The translations under genes and the position numbers were made by a program. Source: Qipengyuania sediminis (lineage in GTDB: Bacteria > Pseudomonadota > Alphaproteobacteria > Sphingomonadales > Sphingomonadaceae). From it: DNA of 64,000 nt. Positions 32,754-40,980 of the stretch are shown here, one piece after another. Each line of letters starts with the position of its first letter. Position 1 is the first letter of the stretch. The notes beneath the pieces are model-generated. The model was given only the letters and a program-made list of their open reading frames with translations, searched no databases and was not told where the DNA came from. The stretch is taken from contig NZ_CP037948.1 of NCBI RefSeq assembly GCF_004358425.1, positions 868,001 to 932,000 of the forward strand, written 5' to 3'.

Positions 32754-32830
32754 CGGGGAGTAGCTCAGCCTGGTAGAGCACTGTCTTCGGGAGGCAGGGG
32801 CCGGAGGTTCGAATCCTCTCTCCCCGACCA
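32754..32830 (+). tRNA. tRNA-Pro (anticodon CGG)
   Basis: 77 nt including CCA. Acceptor CGGGGAG/CTCCCCG, D arm GCTCAGCCTGGTAGAG, anticodon stem CTGTC/GGCAG enclosing loop TTCGGGA (anticodon CGG), T arm GGAGGTTCGAATCCTCT. Confidence 0.95.
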
Positions 32831-33172: not shown

Positions 33173-34156
33173 ATGAGGACGCGGGGTCATCGCAATCGAA
33201 CGGCAGCCTGTGTGCTGTGCGCCGCCGGGTTGAGCGGTGGTTTCGCCGCGCCCGCCACGGCTGCCGGCGTCACCGCGGGATCGCTGATCGAGAATACGGC
33301 GCAGGCGACTTATACCGCCAATAGCGCCCCGCAAACCGTCAGTTCGAATACGGTGACGCTGCGGGTGGACGAAGTGCTCGACGTCGCCGCAGTCTCGCAG
33401 GAAGGCGGGCCGGTTTCGGCCACCACCACCGCGGTGCTGCGCTACAAGGTCACGAACACCGGCAACGGGCCCGAAGCCTTCACGCTCAACGCCGATCCGG
33501 CCGTCTCGGGCAATGCCTTCGACGCGGTCGTCACCGGTCTCGCGATCGATGCGAACGGCAACGGGGTCTATGATCCCGGCGTCGACACCGCACTGGCGAA
33601 CGGTGCGGCGGCTCCGGCGCTCGCCTCGGACGGCGCGCTCGACGTACTCGTGCTGTTGAGCATCCCCGCCGCCGCGCCCGCGGGGGCGACAAGCCGAGTG
33701 GCGCTGATCGCCACGGCCGTCACGGGATCCGGCGCGCCGGGCACGCTCTATGCAGGCGCAGGCCTTGGCGGCGGCGATGCGGTCGTCGGCGCCTCAACCG
33801 CGCGCCAGTCGCCCGAAGGCGTGCTCAGAGTCGACCGGACGCTCGTCGCGCTCGTCAAGTCAGCCTCTATCTCCGATCCTTTCGGCGGCACGCGGCCCGT
33901 TCCCGGCGCCATCATCACCTACCGCATCGTAGCCGATGTGACAGGCACCGGCAGCGCGGCGGGTCTGGCGATCAGCGATCCGATCCCGGCGGGCTCGACC
34001 TATCAGGCCGGTACGCTCCAGCTCGACGGTGCACCGCTTTCCGATGCTGCCGATACGGATGTGGGTGAAGCCTCCGCCAGCGGTATCGCGGTCCGGATCG
34101 GCACGCTCGCCGCGGGCGCGCAGCGCACCGTCAACTTTCAGGTCAAGATCAACTGA
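33173..34156 (+). CDS. Exported DUF11-like repeat protein (cluster gene 1)
   Basis: A 327-residue exported protein. Signal peptide to about residue 31 (ends ATAAG), then the module GSLIENTAQATYTANSAPQT with SSNTVTLRV, a central beta-rich region with Asp/Asn loops (DANGNGVYDPG, possible calcium binding), and a C-terminal DUF11-like domain (SDPFGG, VPGAIITYRI, AISDPIPAGSTYQAGTLQLDG). DUF11 is common in surface proteins built from stacked Ig-like domains. No membrane anchor or sorting signal is visible at its C-terminus. First of four same-strand genes; the next gene starts 11 bases later. Confidence 0.85.
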   Translation: MRTRGHRNRTAACVLCAAGLSGGFAAPATAAGVTAGSLIENTAQATYTANSAPQTVSSNTVTLRVDEVLDVAAVSQEGGPVSATTTAVLRYKVTNTGNGPEAFTLNADPAVSGNAFDAVVTGLAIDANGNGVYDPGVDTALANGAAAPALASDGALDVLVLLSIPAAAPAGATSRVALIATAVTGSGAPGTLYAGAGLGGGDAVVGASTARQSPEGVLRVDRTLVALVKSASISDPFGGTRPVPGAIITYRIVADVTGTGSAAGLAISDPIPAGSTYQAGTLQLDGAPLSDAADTDVGEASASGIAVRIGTLAAGAQRTVNFQVKIN

Positions 34157-34167
34157 GGACCACGGCC

Positions 34168-34644
34168 ATGTTTACCCGCATCCTTGCCCCCGCCCTCGCC
34201 ATCGCCATGTTCGCCGGCGCCGCCGCTCCTGCCCCGGTGCTGGCCGAGGCGGGATCGGTGTCGCTGAAGGGCGAGGTCAAGCTGGTCCGCCAGGTAGTAA
34301 AGGACGGCAAGACCACCGAGACGCTGGAGGAGCCCGGCCAGGTGCTCCCTGGGGACCGGCTGCTGTTTGCCACCCGCTACACCAATTCGGGCGCCGAGCC
34401 CGCGACCGATCTCGTGGTCGTCAATCCGCTGCCCCAGCCGGTGCGGCTCGCGACGGCCGAGGGGCTCGATGTCTCGGTCGACGGGGGCAAGACCTTCGGC
34501 CTGCTTGCGGCGTTGAAGATCGCCGACAGAACCGGCGCCGCCCGCGCTGCCGAACTCGGTGATGTCACCCATGTGCGCTGGCGGATCGCCAGCATCGCGC
34601 CCGGCAGCAGCGGCGAGGTCCGATATCTGGGCGAGGTGCGCTGA
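34168..34644 (+). CDS. Small exported DUF11-like single-domain protein (cluster gene 2)
   Basis: A 158-residue protein with a signal peptide (cleavage near VLAEAG) and one beta domain: KLVRQVVKDGKTTETLEEPG, then LLFATRYTNSGAEPATDLVVVNPLP (the typical DUF11 strand pattern). The Shine-Dalgarno GAGGA precedes the ATG in the same phrase seen before gene 4 (CTGAGGACCA). It may act as a partner or subunit of the larger neighbours; this is inference. Confidence 0.82.
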   Translation: MFTRILAPALAIAMFAGAAAPAPVLAEAGSVSLKGEVKLVRQVVKDGKTTETLEEPGQVLPGDRLLFATRYTNSGAEPATDLVVVNPLPQPVRLATAEGLDVSVDGGKTFGLLAALKIADRTGAARAAELGDVTHVRWRIASIAPGSSGEVRYLGEVR

Positions 34645-34731
34645 GCACTTTTCAGAAAAAAGCACATCCGGCGTCTTCGGTCCGCGGACGCAGCGGGATC
34701 ACCAGCGGACCAGGACTGAGGGACTTACGAT

Positions 34732-35859
34732 ATGACACGCACCACGCATTGGATGGGAACGGTCAGCGCGCTGGCGCTGGCGGGTGCTCCCACGCTCGCC
34801 ATCGCCGCGCCCGTCGGGACCGCGGCGGGTGTCGACATCAGCAACACCGCGAGCGTGAGCTTCAGCGTCGGCGGAACGGCGCAGCCGACCGTCACGTCCG
34901 CAGCCGACGTCTTCAAGGTCGACCGCAAGATTGACCTCGAAGTGACGACGCAGGATTCATCCGCCGTTTCGGTCACCCTCGGTCAGGCCAACGCCGTCAC
35001 GACCTTCCGCGTGACCAACGAATCGAACGCGACCATCGACTTCCTGCTTGCAGCAACGCAGCAGGCGACGGGCACCTCGGCCAAGTTCGGCGGGATGAAC
35101 GATGGCGCCGACGTCAGCAACGTCCGCGTCTTCGTGGAAACCAACGGCACCGCCGGCTGGCAGGCAGGCGATACGCTGGCGAGCTCCCTGGCGGGCGTCG
35201 CCTCGGGCGATGCCGTCACCGTCTACGTCGTATCCGATGCGCCGACCGTAGCGCCCAACGGAACTGTTGCCACAGTGATCCTCACTGCGACCGCGGCTTC
35301 GGGGGCGACTGCGGTTACCGGCACGCCCGCCGGTACCGCCGGCACGGGCGGCAGTGCACTCGCCCAGACCCCGATCGGCACGGCCAACAACAAGACTCAG
35401 ATGGAAACCGTCTATGCCGATGCGCAGGCGGAAAGCCAGACCGGCGACGGCCTGCGCGATGGCAGGCATGCCTCGCGCAGCGATTACCGCGTGTCCGCGG
35501 CCACGCTCACGATCGGCAAGTACAGCCGCATCATCAGCGACCCCTTCAGCGGTGCGGCGAGCCCGCGCGCGATCCCGGGCGCGGTGGTCGAATATTGCAT
35601 CGTTGTGAACAACACCGGCGGCTCCGCCGCCGATGCGGTCACCATCTCCGACCAAGTGCCGAGCGACCTCACCTATGTGACGAGCTCGATCTATTTGAAC
35701 GGAGCGTTCAACGGCACCGACACCTGCGCTTCCACCGGAGGCACCGCGGGGGTCGATGCAACCAATTGGAACGCCGGCACCACCACGGTTTCGAACAATT
35801 TCGCGACAGTCGCGGCAGGAGCGACACGCACCCTGCGCTTCCAGGCGACGATCAAGTGA
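34732..35859 (+). CDS. Exported DUF11-like protein (cluster gene 3)
   Basis: A 375-residue exported protein. Signal peptide (to about residue 26, IAAPVG), then the same N-terminal module as gene 1 (VDISNTASVSFSVGG), a Thr/Ala-rich central region, and a C-terminal DUF11 domain clearly paralogous to that of gene 1 (IISDPFSG, IPGAVVEYCIVVNNTGG, TISDQVPSDLTYVTSSIYLNG, AAGATRTLRFQATIK). Two Cys in the last domain could pair. Strong ribosome site GAGGGA 8 bases upstream. Confidence 0.85.
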   Translation: MTRTTHWMGTVSALALAGAPTLAIAAPVGTAAGVDISNTASVSFSVGGTAQPTVTSAADVFKVDRKIDLEVTTQDSSAVSVTLGQANAVTTFRVTNESNATIDFLLAATQQATGTSAKFGGMNDGADVSNVRVFVETNGTAGWQAGDTLASSLAGVASGDAVTVYVVSDAPTVAPNGTVATVILTATAASGATAVTGTPAGTAGTGGSALAQTPIGTANNKTQMETVYADAQAESQTGDGLRDGRHASRSDYRVSAATLTIGKYSRIISDPFSGAASPRAIPGAVVEYCIVVNNTGGSAADAVTISDQVPSDLTYVTSSIYLNGAFNGTDTCASTGGTAGVDATNWNAGTTTVSNNFATVAAGATRTLRFQATIK

Positions 35860-35892
35860 CGCCCGGCAGATTGGCCTGGCGCCTGAGGACCA

Positions 35893-38800
35893 TTGCGTTG
35901 GTTTAGGACTTTCCCCCGATTGGCAGCGGCGCTTTTCCCCGCGCTGCTGACCATTCCGGGCCCGGGCCACGCCCAATCGATCGTCAATACCGCCCGCGCC
36001 ACCTGGGTGCAGGGCGGCGAAACCCGTTCGGTTTCCTCAAACACAGTCGCGACCGCGATCGAGCGGCAGCGGCTGGCAATCGACCTGTTCCATCCCGCGC
36101 TTGGCGCAGCGCCGCTGGTGATGACGCCGTCGCATTGCGGCGGGCAACCGCTCCCCACGATCCCGACCGCCGACGGCGGCACGATCTCGCTTCCAGCCGC
36201 CGCGACAGACGCCGTGCGAATGGGCGAGATTCTGGTCGTGAAGGTCAGCGCCCCGCTTGCCAACCGCGATCCGAGCGCGGCCGACAGCCTGATGGTCACG
36301 CTCACCGGTGCATCGGGCGACCGGGAGAAGCTGACCATTTTCGAGACCGGCGAGAATACCGGCGTATTCGCGGGTGCCATCCGCACCGCTTCCATCCCCG
36401 TTGTCCCGATACGGGACGATTGCCGTTTGAGCGTCCGAGCAGGCGACACCATCCAGGCGTCCCTTGCAGGGGCAGATGGCAGCGAGCCGATCGTTTCCCA
36501 AATCGTTAACGTCCTCGCGGACCCGTTCGGCGTCGTGTTCGACAGCGTCGACGGGACGCCGGTCTCGGGTGCGCGTGTGGTCATCGTCGACGCGGCGACC
36601 GGTGCCCCCGCGCCCGTCTTTGCGGAAGACGGCGCGACGCCCTGGCCCTCTGCCATCACCAGCGGCGAGCCGGTAACCGATTCAGGAGGGAACAGCTATT
36701 CGATGGCGCCCGGCGAATACCGTTTCCCGCTGATGCCCTTCGGCAGGTACCGCATCCTCGTTACCCCGCCCGCGCCCTATAGTGCCCCCTCGACGGCCCC
36801 GACCGAGGCACTCGCTGCGCTGACCAGGCCCGGGGGCGGCGCGTTCCAGATCGGAGACGCAAGCTACGGCCGCCCCTTCGACCTCGCGACGCCGGAGGCG
36901 ATTCGTGTCGATGTACCGGTTGACCGGCCCGCCCTGGGAGTGACCCTGACCAAATCGGTATCCCGCGCGCAGGCGCAACCGGGCGACAGCGTGCTTTACA
37001 CCGTGAACATCACGAATCCCGATCCGGGACATGCGCAGCGCAACACTATCCTCTTCGACCACCCCTCCCCCTGGCTGCGGGTTCGCGCGGGTTCGCTGCG
37101 GATCGACGGCAGGCCCGCCCCCGCAGCTTTGACGAGAGCGCTCGATGGAAGGAGCTTCACCATCGATCCGGGCCCGATCCTGCCTGGCGCGACGGTCCGC
37201 GTCACTTACGCCATGACAGTCGACGGCGGAGCCCCGCCCGGCCAGGCGCTCAACCGGATCGAGGCGCGCGATGCGGGAGGCCGACGAGCCGTCGCCGAAG
37301 CGGCCTTGCGAGTGACGCGCGACAGCATCGCGGCGCGCATGACGGTGATCGGCCGCGTGGTGCTGGGCACCTGCGCGCCGACAGAGTCCGGGATCGGCAT
37401 TCCCGGCGTTCGCATCATGCTGGAAGACGGCAGCTTCGCCATAACTGATCGCGACGGGCGCTATCATTTCGAAGGCGTGGAGCCCGGCACGCACGTGGTC
37501 GCGCTCGCGCCGCAGACCTTGCCGCCAGGGGCCGAAGCGATCGATTGCGAGCGTTCTACCCGCAGCGCCGGCAGCGCGATTTCGCGTTTCGTGACCGGCC
37601 AGGGCGGATCGCTAGCCGTCGCCGATTTCAATGCTGCGCTCCCTGGCGCTCCGCCCTCTGCGCCACCAGCCCCGGCGCGCGGGTCCGACGGTCCTTCGGC
37701 CCGCCCCGCCCCGCCCTCGCCCGTGGCGGACCCGCTGATCATCGCAAGCGACCGCGCCGCATCCGGCGCGGAAACCGACTGGCTGGCGCTGGGCGATGGC
37801 CCCGCGGATTTCCTCTTCCCGGCCGCAGGCCACAATCCGCGCATCCCCTCCACGCGCGCTGTGATCCGCCACCGTCCCGGGCAAACGGTGGCTCTCAAAG
37901 TCAACGGCCGGGCGGTCGATCCCTTGGCTTTTGAAGGCACCCGAAGCGCGCCGGGCGGGGGTTGGGCAGTTTCGATCTGGCGGGGCATTCCGCTGGGGCA
38001 ATCGAAGAGCGTGCTCGCCGCCACGATCACGAATGCTGATGGCGCTGTCGCACAAGAGCTTGTGCGCGAAATACAGTTCGTTTCCGCGCCATGGCACGCC
38101 GAGCTGATACCGGCGCGTTCGCAGCTCATCGCGGATGGCCGCACCCGCCCGGTCGCCGCGGTGCGCTTCACCGATCGCGAGGGCCGACCAGTGCGGAGCG
38201 GTGTCACCGGCAGTTTCGCGGTCAGCGAGCCCTATGAAAGCGCCGCACTGCTCGATCAGCTCCAGCTCGGCCAGCTTACCGGCGCGCCGGCCGGACTTCC
38301 CGGCGGGGGCGCGATCTGGACGATCGAGGGCGACGATGGGGTGGCGCTGATCGAGCTTGCCCCGACCATGGTGAGCGGTCCGCTGCATCTCGACTTCGCT
38401 TTCGCCGATCAAAGCCTCACCCGTCAGCAGCAGATCGAAGCCTGGGTGGTCCCAGGTGACCTGCCCTTCACGCTCGTCGGCATCGCCGAAGGGACGCTGG
38501 GGGCGAAAAGCATCGCCGATCAGATGGACCGCAGCCACCGCTTCGATAGCGATCTGGGGGATGATGCGCGCGTGGCCTTTTACGCAAAGGGGCGGGTGCC
38601 AGGCAGAATGCTGCTGACCGTGGCCTATGACAGCGCGAAAGAGGAGGCGGGGCAGCGCCTTCTCGGCAGCATCGACCCCGCCGCCTATTACACCATTTAT
38701 GCCGACGGTTCGACCCGCCGCTTCGATGCCGCCAGCACCGAAAAGCTCTACGTGCGGCTGGAGGCGCAGTCTTTTTATGCGCTCTACGGCGATTTCGTCA

Positions 38801-40980
38801 CCGGCTTCGATCAGACCCGGCTGGCCCGCTATCAGCGCACGCTTACGGGCCTAAAGGCGGAGACGCGGGTGGGCGCTGTCCACGCGCAGGGTTTTGCTGC
38901 CAGGGTCGCGGGCCGCTACCGCCGTGACGAAATCCAGGGCGCGGGGATCACCGGGCCCTATGCGCTGGGCAGCCGCGATCTCCTCGCCAACAGCGAGAAG
39001 GTGGCGATCGAGGTGCGCGACCGGTTGCGGTCCGAAGTCATCGTCAGCCGGCGCGAGCTGATCCGCTTCGTCGATTACGATATTGACCCCCTTGCCGCCA
39101 CGATCCGGTTTCGCGAGCCGGTGCTCAGCCGCGATTTCGATCTCAACCCGCAATTCATCGTCATCGATTACGAGACCCTGGGCGGCGATGGCGAAGCGGA
39201 ATGGAACGCGGGGCTGCGCGCCGACGTGACCCTTGGGGCGCGCGACCCGATACGGATCGGCGCCACGGCCATCAGCGATCGCGGCGAAGGTCCCCGCACC
39301 GGCATCGCAGGCGTGGACCTGCGCGCCCGCATCGGCGATGCGACCGAATTGCGTGCCGAAGCCGCGTTAAGCCGGGGCGGAGGCGAAGATAGTACCGCCT
39401 GGCTGGTCGAGGCAGAGCATCGCAGCGGCAAGCTCGACGTTCTGGGCTATGCCCGACAGACCGATCGTGAATTCGGGGTCGGCCAGCAGAACGGGGTCGA
39501 GCTCGGCCGCCGCAAGTTCGGGGTCGATGCGCGGCTCCAGCTCGGCGACAATGCCAGCCTGGTCGCGCGCAGCTGGCATGACGAAAGCCTGACCGACACC
39601 GGCCGCCGCCTGGGCGTGCAGGGCGATTACGTCTGGCGCGGGGCGGAGGGCGATGCGCGGATCGGGATCGCACACCTCACCGACAAACTGCCCGATGGCC
39701 GCAGCGCCAGCTCCACCATGCTTGACGGGCAAGCCACGCGGCGGCTGATGGGCAATCGGCTCGAGATCGGCGTCGGCACCAGCGTCGCGCTGGGCTCGGA
39801 CGCCGCGGTCGACCTTCCCGCCCGCCACCGGGTCCGCGCACGCTATGCGCTGAGCGATGCTGTCCGGGTCGTGGGCAATTACGAGATTGCCAAGGGCGAG
39901 GAGATCGACGCGCGGACCTTCAACCTCGGCCTCGAATTGTCGCCCTGGGCGGGGGCCCGGATCGTCAGCACGATCGGCCGACAGGACATCGCGGAAGCCG
40001 GTGCGCGCAGCTATGCGGCGTTCGGGCTGGCGCAGAGTGTCACGCTGTCTCCCACGCTGACTCTCGATGCCACGGTGGACGGCAACCGCGAGCTGGGCGG
40101 CGCTGATGTCTTCGATCTGGTCAACCCGCAGCACCCGGCTTCAAGCGGCGGGCACCTGTCGCAGGATGGTGCGCTGTTTGAAGATTTCACCGCCCTCACG
40201 CTCGGGCTCGGCTGGCGGATCGAGAGCTGGTCTGCCACCTTGCGCGGCGAATGGCGCGATGGCGAATACGCGAACCGTAAGGGGCTGACGGGCGGGGTCA
40301 TCCGCCAGCTTGGTGACGGAGTGACGGTAGGCGGCGGCGCAAGCTGGACACGCGCGGCGGGCAGCGGCGCGGCCGCGACCGAGGTGATCGACGCCGCCAT
40401 CGCCGCTGCCTACCGCCCCGCGGGATCGGAGTTGGCCGGACTCGCCAAGCTCGAATTCCGCAGCGATCGCGTCAGCGATGCCGTGCTGGGCCAGACGGGG
40501 CCGGCGGGACGCACCGCGCTCACGGTCGATGGCGACGCGAAATCCCAGCGGCTGATTGCGAGTGTCTCGACCAGCTGGCGGCCAGTCGACGAAAATGCCG
40601 GCAAATCCGTGCGGCGCAGCGAGATCGGGCTGTTTGCGGGTGCGCGCTACAATCTCGACCGGTTGGAGCGTCAGGAGATCGCCGGCACCGCGCTGCTCGC
40701 GGGGGTCGATGCGCGCCTCGGCATTGGGGAGCGGATCGAGGTCGGCGGCAGCGGCACGCTACGCGCCAATGTGACCGAAGGGACCACCGCTTTCGCAATT
40801 GGACCGCAAATCGGCATCTCGCCTGCGAAGAACACGCTGCTCACGGTCGGCTACAATATCAAGGGGTTCCGCGATGCGGACTTCGCCGAGGCCCGGCATA
40901 CCGGGCGCGGGCTCTATGCCTCGGTCAAGCTCAAGCTCGATCGCGACAGCCTGGGCTTTCTCGGCCTTGGCAGACGCTGA
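35893..40980 (+). CDS. Giant outer-membrane protein with DUF11 and regulatory-like domains (cluster gene 4)
   Basis: A 1695-residue protein. Signal peptide (1-28, ends GHAQS), then the shared N-terminal module (SIVNTARATWVQGG ... SSNTVATAI), a region with Ig-like sandwich patterns, a DUF11 domain (about 349-470, TKSVSRAQAQPGDSVLYTV), a carboxypeptidase-regulatory/SdrD-B-like domain (about 486-536, GVRIMLEDGSFAITDRDGRYHF), a Pro/Ala linker, more beta domains, and from about residue 1000 a long series of alternating amphipathic strands typical of a beta-barrel with 20 or more strands. The end is LGFLGLGRR, without the usual terminal aromatic residue. TTG start (35893) with GAGG 4 bases upstream. 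Probably displays the N-terminal domains or exports partners; the function is not known to me. Confidence 0.85.
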   Translation: MRWFRTFPRLAAALFPALLTIPGPGHAQSIVNTARATWVQGGETRSVSSNTVATAIERQRLAIDLFHPALGAAPLVMTPSHCGGQPLPTIPTADGGTISLPAAATDAVRMGEILVVKVSAPLANRDPSAADSLMVTLTGASGDREKLTIFETGENTGVFAGAIRTASIPVVPIRDDCRLSVRAGDTIQASLAGADGSEPIVSQIVNVLADPFGVVFDSVDGTPVSGARVVIVDAATGAPAPVFAEDGATPWPSAITSGEPVTDSGGNSYSMAPGEYRFPLMPFGRYRILVTPPAPYSAPSTAPTEALAALTRPGGGAFQIGDASYGRPFDLATPEAIRVDVPVDRPALGVTLTKSVSRAQAQPGDSVLYTVNITNPDPGHAQRNTILFDHPSPWLRVRAGSLRIDGRPAPAALTRALDGRSFTIDPGPILPGATVRVTYAMTVDGGAPPGQALNRIEARDAGGRRAVAEAALRVTRDSIAARMTVIGRVVLGTCAPTESGIGIPGVRIMLEDGSFAITDRDGRYHFEGVEPGTHVVALAPQTLPPGAEAIDCERSTRSAGSAISRFVTGQGGSLAVADFNAALPGAPPSAPPAPARGSDGPSARPAPPSPVADPLIIASDRAASGAETDWLALGDGPADFLFPAAGHNPRIPSTRAVIRHRPGQTVALKVNGRAVDPLAFEGTRSAPGGGWAVSIWRGIPLGQSKSVLAATITNADGAVAQELVREIQFVSAPWHAELIPARSQLIADGRTRPVAAVRFTDREGRPVRSGVTGSFAVSEPYESAALLDQLQLGQLTGAPAGLPGGGAIWTIEGDDGVALIELAPTMVSGPLHLDFAFADQSLTRQQQIEAWVVPGDLPFTLVGIAEGTLGAKSIADQMDRSHRFDSDLGDDARVAFYAKGRVPGRMLLTVAYDSAKEEAGQRLLGSIDPAAYYTIYADGSTRRFDAASTEKLYVRLEAQSFYALYGDFVTGFDQTRLARYQRTLTGLKAETRVGAVHAQGFAARVAGRYRRDEIQGAGITGPYALGSRDLLANSEKVAIEVRDRLRSEVIVSRRELIRFVDYDIDPLAATIRFREPVLSRDFDLNPQFIVIDYETLGGDGEAEWNAGLRADVTLGARDPIRIGATAISDRGEGPRTGIAGVDLRARIGDATELRAEAALSRGGGEDSTAWLVEAEHRSGKLDVLGYARQTDREFGVGQQNGVELGRRKFGVDARLQLGDNASLVARSWHDESLTDTGRRLGVQGDYVWRGAEGDARIGIAHLTDKLPDGRSASSTMLDGQATRRLMGNRLEIGVGTSVALGSDAAVDLPARHRVRARYALSDAVRVVGNYEIAKGEEIDARTFNLGLELSPWAGARIVSTIGRQDIAEAGARSYAAFGLAQSVTLSPTLTLDATVDGNRELGGADVFDLVNPQHPASSGGHLSQDGALFEDFTALTLGLGWRIESWSATLRGEWRDGEYANRKGLTGGVIRQLGDGVTVGGGASWTRAAGSGAAATEVIDAAIAAAYRPAGSELAGLAKLEFRSDRVSDAVLGQTGPAGRTALTVDGDAKSQRLIASVSTSWRPVDENAGKSVRRSEIGLFAGARYNLDRLERQEIAGTALLAGVDARLGIGERIEVGGSGTLRANVTEGTTAFAIGPQIGISPAKNTLLTVGYNIKGFRDADFAEARHTGRGLYASVKLKLDRDSLGFLGLGRR

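Follow-up and report, generated by a model that had tools for sequence, protein, structure and literature searches.

This article deals with a cluster of four genes, g1 to g4, of Qipengyuania sediminis (Sphingomonadaceae), located in the stretch from position 868,001 to 932,000 of contig NZ_CP037948.1 (assembly GCF_004358425.1). The whole stretch analysed, 64,000 nucleotides in length, is called the window, and coordinates refer to it unless another record is named. The four products appear to share out the parts of a DUF11 domain, namely an acceptor that lacks the last two strands and a donor hairpin corresponding to them, and we consider it reasonably probable, on sequence grounds, that the cluster encodes a donor-strand-type, sortase-free surface fibre based on g4. 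A preliminary description of this DNA had reported four consecutive plus-strand open reading frames of 327, 158, 375 and 1695 residues, all with signal peptides; the frames are present as claimed, and a Sec-like signal peptide with an AxA-type site is seen, by eye and not by a predictor, at the start of each product. The intergenic gaps g1/g2, g2/g3 and g3/g4 measure 11, 87 and 33 bases. The genes and their features are the following:

33173-34156, plus strand: g1, 327 amino acids, putative fibre subunit with donor, immunoglobulin (Ig)-like middle domain and acceptor
33263-33370, plus strand: g1 donor hairpin, residues 31-66, with Asn41 as the predicted isopeptide Asn
33839-34153, plus strand: g1 acceptor, DUF11 without its last two strands, with Lys229 and Asp269; the chain ends there
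34168-34644, plus strand: g2, 158 amino acids, acceptor only (positions 14-85 of the 125-position profile described below), donor absent
34732-35859, plus strand: g3, 375 amino acids, putative second fibre subunit with donor, middle part and acceptor
34807-34926, plus strand: g3 donor hairpin, residues 26-65, with Asn38
35479-35856, plus strand: g3 acceptor, residues 250-375, with Lys263 and Asp307
35893-40980, plus strand: g4, 1695 amino acids, TTG start, putative base or anchor with N-terminal donor, complete DUF11, CarboxypepD_reg, Ig-like domains and barrel
35974-36063, plus strand: g4 N-terminal donor, residues 28-57, with Asn32
36925-37332, plus strand: complete DUF11 of g4 in cis, residues 345-480, with Lys354, Asp389 and Asn454
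37384-37503, plus strand: CarboxypepD_reg match of g4 in Pfam, residues 498-537
38575-40932, plus strand: predicted outer-membrane beta-barrel of g4, residues 895-1680, with 39 strands of at least six residues in the model

The gathering score of DUF11 in Pfam is 24.6 bits. The C-terminal matches of g1 (27.8 bits, residues 240-326 of 327) and g3 (32.9 bits, residues 279-361 of 375) lie above it, as expected from the preliminary description, which had assigned a C-terminal DUF11 domain to both, and the DUF11 matches of g2 (15.9 bits) and g4 (14.6 bits) lie below. The architecture described for g4 (N-terminal module, DUF11, carboxypeptidase-regulatory-like domain and strand-rich C-terminus) was likewise found, with DUF11 under the Pfam cut-off. 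The N-terminal module had been defined as NTA followed by SN.V in g1, g3 and g4; this is correct for g1 (IENTAQATY..SSNTV) and g4 (IVNTARATW..SSNTV), whereas in g3 the first half is ISNTASVSF and the second reads TSAADVF, not a literal SN.V. The Pfam matches of g1 and g3 cover positions 11-84 and 12-85, respectively, of the 114 positions of the profile.

The nature of the two chain ends was examined with a custom hidden Markov model (HMM, 125 positions) trained on 14 DUF11 domains that are complete within one chain. A Desulfuromonadales protein in locus L004 supplied six tandem copies, locus L003 two, tip-like genes two and g4 proteins (that of the window among them) four internal domains, with g1, g2 and g3 left out of the training. 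The C-terminus of g1 corresponds to positions 11-84, reaching residue 326, and its N-terminus to positions 88-120 (independent E-value, iE, 0.5; 0.024 with a tail-only HMM). The C-terminus of g3 corresponds to positions 12-84 (to residue 374) and its N-terminus to positions 63-123 over residues 7-66 (iE 0.0019), and g2 matches only over the positions listed above. The internal DUF11 of g4, itself a member of the training set, is complete (positions 3-124), and the g4 N-terminus gives a weak match to the tail HMM at residues 27-54 (iE 0.55). In profile-versus-profile alignment the g1 family places its C-terminal columns on domain positions 8-93 (probability 95.4) and its N-terminal columns on positions 95-132 (probability 2.6, E 0.018). 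By these profiles, the termini of the g1 family look like two contiguous DUF11 halves in swapped order. The N-terminal module, which the preliminary description had treated as separate from DUF11, instead matches the last two DUF11 strands, relocated from the C-terminal to the N-terminal end; its reading as a domain of its own or as a generic surface motif was rejected on the basis of this family-level alignment to the DUF11 tail that the C-termini lack.

Relatives at E<=0.001 numbered 1118 for g4 and 1243 for g1, and the following counts refer to the 120 listed for each, which are not independent sequences. The best tail-HMM site lay within the first 80 residues in 113/120 g1 relatives (about 25% expected by length), and the real N-termini scored above one shuffle each in 118/120 g1 relatives and 117/120 g4 relatives; the g4 N-terminus was among the two best sites in 98/120, the internal domain being usually at the top. 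When the C-terminal and N-terminal pieces of g1 were joined, the Pfam DUF11 score rose clearly, from 31.0 to 38.8, 38.1 and 39.5 with the donors of g1, g3 and g4 (control 33.0), and the joined pieces of g3 went from 33.5 to 34.6 and 36.3, values not clearly beyond the control (35.0). Scored against the sister family DUF7507, g1 changed from 16.5 to 33.5 once its own donor was joined and to 20.8 with the g4 donor (none listed for the g3 donor; control 18.9), and against DUF7927 the control (26.8) exceeded two of the three values obtained with donors (28.6, 24.7 and 23.7). The split-domain grammar has family-level support in these profiles, and the sequence complementarity seen at the family level would allow an incomplete Ig domain to be completed by the N-terminal strand of a neighbour, in the chaperone-usher manner. 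The role proposed for each gene follows from which half, donor or acceptor, it carries.

Conservation of gene order was assessed in 47 loci, all chosen for having g4: seven of the same genus and 40 from other host-family genomes, the latter drawn from 55 with a g4 match and restricted to near-full-length g4, with partial and second copies left out. The order g1-g2-g3-g4 on one strand was found in 47/47 loci (in L046, g1 occupies two open frames), so that the genes do co-occur in relatives; a lack of co-occurrence would, according to the preliminary description, have refuted its reading. Since the order is kept in all of them, the cluster is not regarded as a set of chance neighbours. Domains of the DUF11 type are common in the stalks of surface proteins (PMC12617251), which would suit a view of g1 to g4 as unlinked ordinary adhesins placed side by side by chance; the constant order together with the complementary truncation and motif makes that view very improbable. 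By the HMM end criterion, a C-terminal acceptor was flagged in 45 (g1), 37 (g2), 39 (g3) and 0 (g4) of the 47 loci, and a loose donor pattern was present in 44 (g1), 46 (g3), 47 (g4) and 4 (g2).

In 32/47 loci another DUF11 gene comes after g4; the acceptor was flagged in 13 of these genes and the donor pattern in seven, which are read as chance hits, and two of the three same-genus downstream genes given to Pfam contain a P_proprotein domain. The window has no DUF11 gene 3' of g4, and the only other DUF11 match of the genome (23.8 bits, under the cut-off) is a gene about 186 kilobases away:

L027:5580-7454 (G000:C1:713580-715454): tip candidate, 624 amino acids, exported-looking, C-terminal DUF11 with Lys and Asp, ending FTISFDARVK

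The custom HMM covers only part of this domain (positions 13-60) and no donor was found on reading. The unlinked 624-residue protein is, judging from these features, a likely candidate for an acceptor-only tip subunit.

If the two halves meet, they could do so within one chain or between chains. In the first case each acceptor would be completed by the donor hairpin of the same chain, and g1 and g3 would be circularly permuted monomers displayed on g4, with no polymer. Sequence alone cannot separate intramolecular from intermolecular pairing, and in the structural model of g1 the N-terminal 36 residues are at high confidence (block means 86-96), so that this segment is either packed or a stable hairpin. 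Self-closed monomers, however, would have no need of the acceptor-type g2 and the donor-only g4 that accompany g1 and g3 in 47/47 loci, nor of the further DUF11 gene in 32/47, and we consider this explanation quite unlikely. In the same model residues 67-222 of g1 form one Ig-like domain by Foldseek and VIA-align. Otherwise these searches with g1 returned general Ig-like folds (integrins, complement and alpha-2-macroglobulin, antigen I/II domains, SafDAA) and were set aside.

The chemistry of the proposed link is suggested by structure 9IFR of a DUF11 (CLIPPER) domain, in which Lys715 and Asn806 are bonded (PMC12617251); Asp748 accompanies them, and the domain spans residues 708-828. There the Asn is close to the C-terminal boundary of the domain, so that its counterpart belongs to the piece found at the N-terminus of g1, g3 and g4; in g1 and g3 the triad is not in one continuous domain, Lys and Asp being C-terminal and Asn in the N-terminal hairpin. 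A sequence search of the PDB with g4 and one joined piece gave nothing significant (best E 0.92 and 0.36), and 9IFR was absent from its matches. Residues were counted over 48 sequences (the 47 loci plus the window). In g1 the Lys is kept in 47/48 (the other, by our reading, is the L046 fragment), the Asp in 48/48 and the donor Asn in 45/48, with Ser in L053 and L070 and what we read as an alignment artefact in L046. In g3 the Lys is kept in 48/48, the Asp in 47/48 (Glu in 1/48) and the donor Asn in 48/48. The donor Asn of g4 is present in 48/48 of the host-family alignment and in 118/120 relatives (two gaps), and its internal DUF11 has Lys, Asp and Asn all in cis in 120/120 relatives. Among the downstream DUF11 genes (the 32 plus the distant one), Lys and Asp are each found in 31/33. 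In L070 the donor Asn of g1 is Ser, the Asp of g3 is Glu and the following gene has neither Lys nor Asp; such a joint loss, a single case, would be expected if these residues meet across chains.

The acceptor g2 departs from this pattern. Its Asp site is occupied by Asn in 44, Ser in 3 and Thr in 1 of 48 (Asn86 in the window), and its Lys site by Arg in 22, Lys in 19 and other residues or a gap in 7. The loss of Asp as a general trait of g2 was ruled out, several g2 proteins outside the host family keeping it. The absence of Asp from all 48 host-family g2 sequences speaks for a hairpin exchange that is non-covalent throughout, with Lys, Asp and Asn kept for folding and not for a bond. We find this doubtful, given that the three residues are near-invariant in g1, g3 and the g4 donor and arranged as in bond-forming DUF11 domains; intermolecular Lys-Asn bonds, we infer, probably join the subunits. 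The preliminary description had noted no sorting gene nearby, and the search for sortase PF04203 gave 0 matches in the whole genome, the control search matching 3/14 genomes. No C-terminal sorting signal (LPXTG, hydrophobic stretch and basic tail) was found by direct reading of g1, g2 and g3, which end in NFQVKIN, RYLGEVR and RFQATIK.

The C-terminal part of g4 had been described as many amphipathic strands forming a barrel, and structure prediction, which would have refuted that description by showing no barrel, does give a barrel-like end with the 39 strands listed above, AlphaFold2 modelling residues 615-1695 with moderate confidence (predicted local distance difference test 76.2, predicted template modelling score 0.68). 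Foldseek ranked SlpA at the top for this barrel, followed by LptD, TonB-type and other barrels, with FimD at rank 21, and the VIA-align list was headed by FimD. No usher family was detected in g4 by Pfam at E<=1. A PF00577 usher match lies elsewhere in the genome (C1 2,008,530-2,009,996), which may also have a classical chaperone-usher system. By our count, an OmpA (peptidoglycan-binding) domain is present in 100/120 of the distant g4 proteins listed, and in L003 it spans residues 831-931 of g4, directly before the barrel; because of this domain in distant relatives, the segment of g4 preceding the barrel is suggested to be periplasmic. That g4 only anchors the fibre or is a surface protein of the porin type, and that the subunits are exported by another route, is a serious possibility that we place somewhat below even: the barrel model is only moderate, and FimD ranks just 21 in Foldseek, behind SlpA, LptD and TonB-type proteins. 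On the other side, Pfam detects no exporter-like protein among g1 to g3, and the OmpA domain gives the pre-barrel segment a periplasmic location, probably shared by the donor, in which case the fibre would have to pass the membrane beside it. The first part of the barrel (window 38440-39387, about residues 850-1165 of g4) is also found by itself in proteins encoded on plasmids and chromosomes, whose names vary between TonB-dependent receptor, OmpA family and hypothetical; the plasmid records matched include Deinococcus (16) and Thermus (11), the matched parts not being listed.

Beyond the host family, 22 loci were compared (L001-L004, L073-L087 and L090-L092, with the exclusion of L005, which breaks off inside g4). 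By our reading, 15/22 have both a g2-like gene and a subunit with a donor 5' of g4 (the donor pattern of L075 is doubtful), 3/22 are cut by contig ends and 4/22 (L086, L087, L090, L091) lack the pattern. In L087, L090 and L091 a giant protein has six to eight complete DUF11 domains, and the barrel-like part is a gene of its own (1206-1402 amino acids) that comes next. Among named records, g4 relatives occur in Hyphomonadaceae, Deltaproteobacteria, Desulfuromonadales, Pseudomonadales, Nitrospirota and Thermoanaerobaculia. Within the host family the distribution is patchy, with a g4 match, in some cases partial, in 55/149 genomes and 42/96 genera. Among 41 relatives, g1, strong g2 and g4 matches were found in the same eight genomes; in one further genome, 75% complete, a fragment of g4 lies at the end of a contig, and another four have a weak g2 match only. 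A tally of 350/398 genomes was rejected as a measure of the distribution of the system, as the OmpA domain of the query gives most of the weak matches inspected, and only a selection of its long matches was used. Stand-alone g2-like genes of 138-149 amino acids (frame of 191 in L032) occur in same-genus genomes (L028:8143-8565, L029:8977-9426, L030:8159-8575 and L032:8963-9538), three of these four genomes being without g1 and g4 matches.

In chaperone-usher pili the tip subunit has the acceptor only, the shaft subunits both halves and the base or terminator the donor only. Applying this logic, g4 is placed at the base because it is donor-only. In the fibre that we propose, subunits would cross by Sec, the tip protein, whose gene in this genome probably lies outside the cluster, would start the chain, and g1 and g3, as shaft subunits, would add by donor insertion, the hairpin of one completing the acceptor of the next in head-to-tail growth. 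In the g1 and g3 links, Lys and Asp of the acceptor would meet the donor Asn, and a spontaneous Lys-Asn isopeptide would lock the chains with no sortase. The chain would leave via the g4 barrel, g4 perhaps acting also as exit pore and so combining usher and terminator in one protein; its donor, with no C-terminal acceptor, would end the chain at the base while the barrel holds the fibre in the outer membrane. Acceptor-only proteins (the tip protein and g2) could stand at the distal end only or bind donors reversibly. In this family g2 would be a non-covalent acceptor and may hold donors reversibly before assembly, perhaps as a donor-guarding chaperone or a cap; this is the least certain assignment, partly as g2-like genes stand alone in some genomes. 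No chaperone match was found by Pfam among g1 to g4, the rest of the genome not having been searched for chaperones. The complementary halves at the family level, the donor and acceptor grammar, the conserved residues and the gene order are supported by sequence; pairing between chains, bond formation, subunit order, export through g4 and the role of g2 would follow from them by inference. The preliminary description had proposed a barrel that anchors or exports small partners and forms a surface structure: the co-inherited exported cluster, the predicted barrel and a probable surface structure stand, and the match of the module to the DUF11 tail, with the assembly mechanism that it suggests, was missed.

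Upstream of g1 lie a tRNA-Pro (cgg) gene (32754-32830), an alpha/beta-hydrolase-like gene (Pfam-checked) and what we take from its sequence to be a thymidylate-synthase-like gene; downstream of g4 are a convergent gene, presumably for a RecG-like helicase, and Mfd (Pfam-checked). The tRNA-Pro adjoins an operon that is patchy across the genus and may mark an insertion site. A promoter scan gave 0 promoter-like sites, and terminator-like sites numbered 4 versus 4.4 expected; the g1-g4 operon is deduced from the gaps and the conservation only.

Donor-strand fibres and DUF11 isopeptide domains are already known, and a natural split DUF11 that joins chains would be the new part. A literature search, without subscription papers or bioRxiv, returned no description of the g1-g4 cluster or of such a split domain. 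The closest systems in their working are archaeal threads, chaperone-usher pili and engineered tag/catcher pairs, the last of which we take to be those called SpyTag/SpyCatcher. To our knowledge, the host of the archaeal thread has no outer membrane. Sortase-dependent pili (RrgB, SpaA) are covalent chains of Ig-like subunits; here, the genome has no sortase match, and each chain terminates with the final strand of the acceptor and has no sorting signal. In the archaeal thread of Saci_0406 (PMC9715654), subunits are joined head to tail by donor strand complementation, and both an isopeptide bond between subunits and a cap protein have been proposed; that bond links the N-terminal amine of Asp24 to Asn57 two subunits on, and the term DUF11 is absent from the text. 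Chaperone-usher pili (FimA/FimD; PMC9715654) resemble the proposed fibre in their incomplete Ig-like subunits, N-terminal donor, acceptor-only tip, donor-only terminator and large outer-membrane barrel and differ from the cluster, which has a two-strand hairpin donor by profile, a predicted covalent link and base and barrel in one protein. The CLIPPER domain 9IFR shares the domain family, the Lys/Asp/Asn triad and occurrence in surface proteins, including Gram-negative ones (PMC12617251); there the triad is in one chain, whereas the domain in this cluster stops short of the Asn strand, and the Asn sits on an N-terminal hairpin common to other chains. GhlA of Litorilinea aerophila (Chloroflexota), a 'grappling hook-like' extracellular filament of 6,596 residues with 49 DUF11 domains in a row, is likewise an extracellular DUF11 filament, but a single giant chain, with no split domain described in the text available (PMC13319060). 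Split CnaB tag/catcher pairs resemble the cluster as isopeptide domains that rejoin covalently between chains; they are engineered, of CnaB fold and Gram-positive source, whereas here the split appears natural (PMC5487036).

In its fullest form the proposal is of a widespread Gram-negative natural tag/catcher fibre, locked without sortase by split CLIPPER isopeptide domains, with a giant barrel as exporter, terminator and anchor and, in sphingomonads, an acceptor without the catalytic Asp that guards donors; we put it forward tentatively, a little short of an even chance. If true, it would give a function to many proteins now annotated as "DUF11 domain-containing", "TIGR01451 family" or "hypothetical" and would offer a reason why DUF11 proteins of the g1 and g3 kind end mid-domain. 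It would also represent a further way of building covalent pili across the outer membrane, and the natural donor and acceptor pairs could serve as protein-joining tools.

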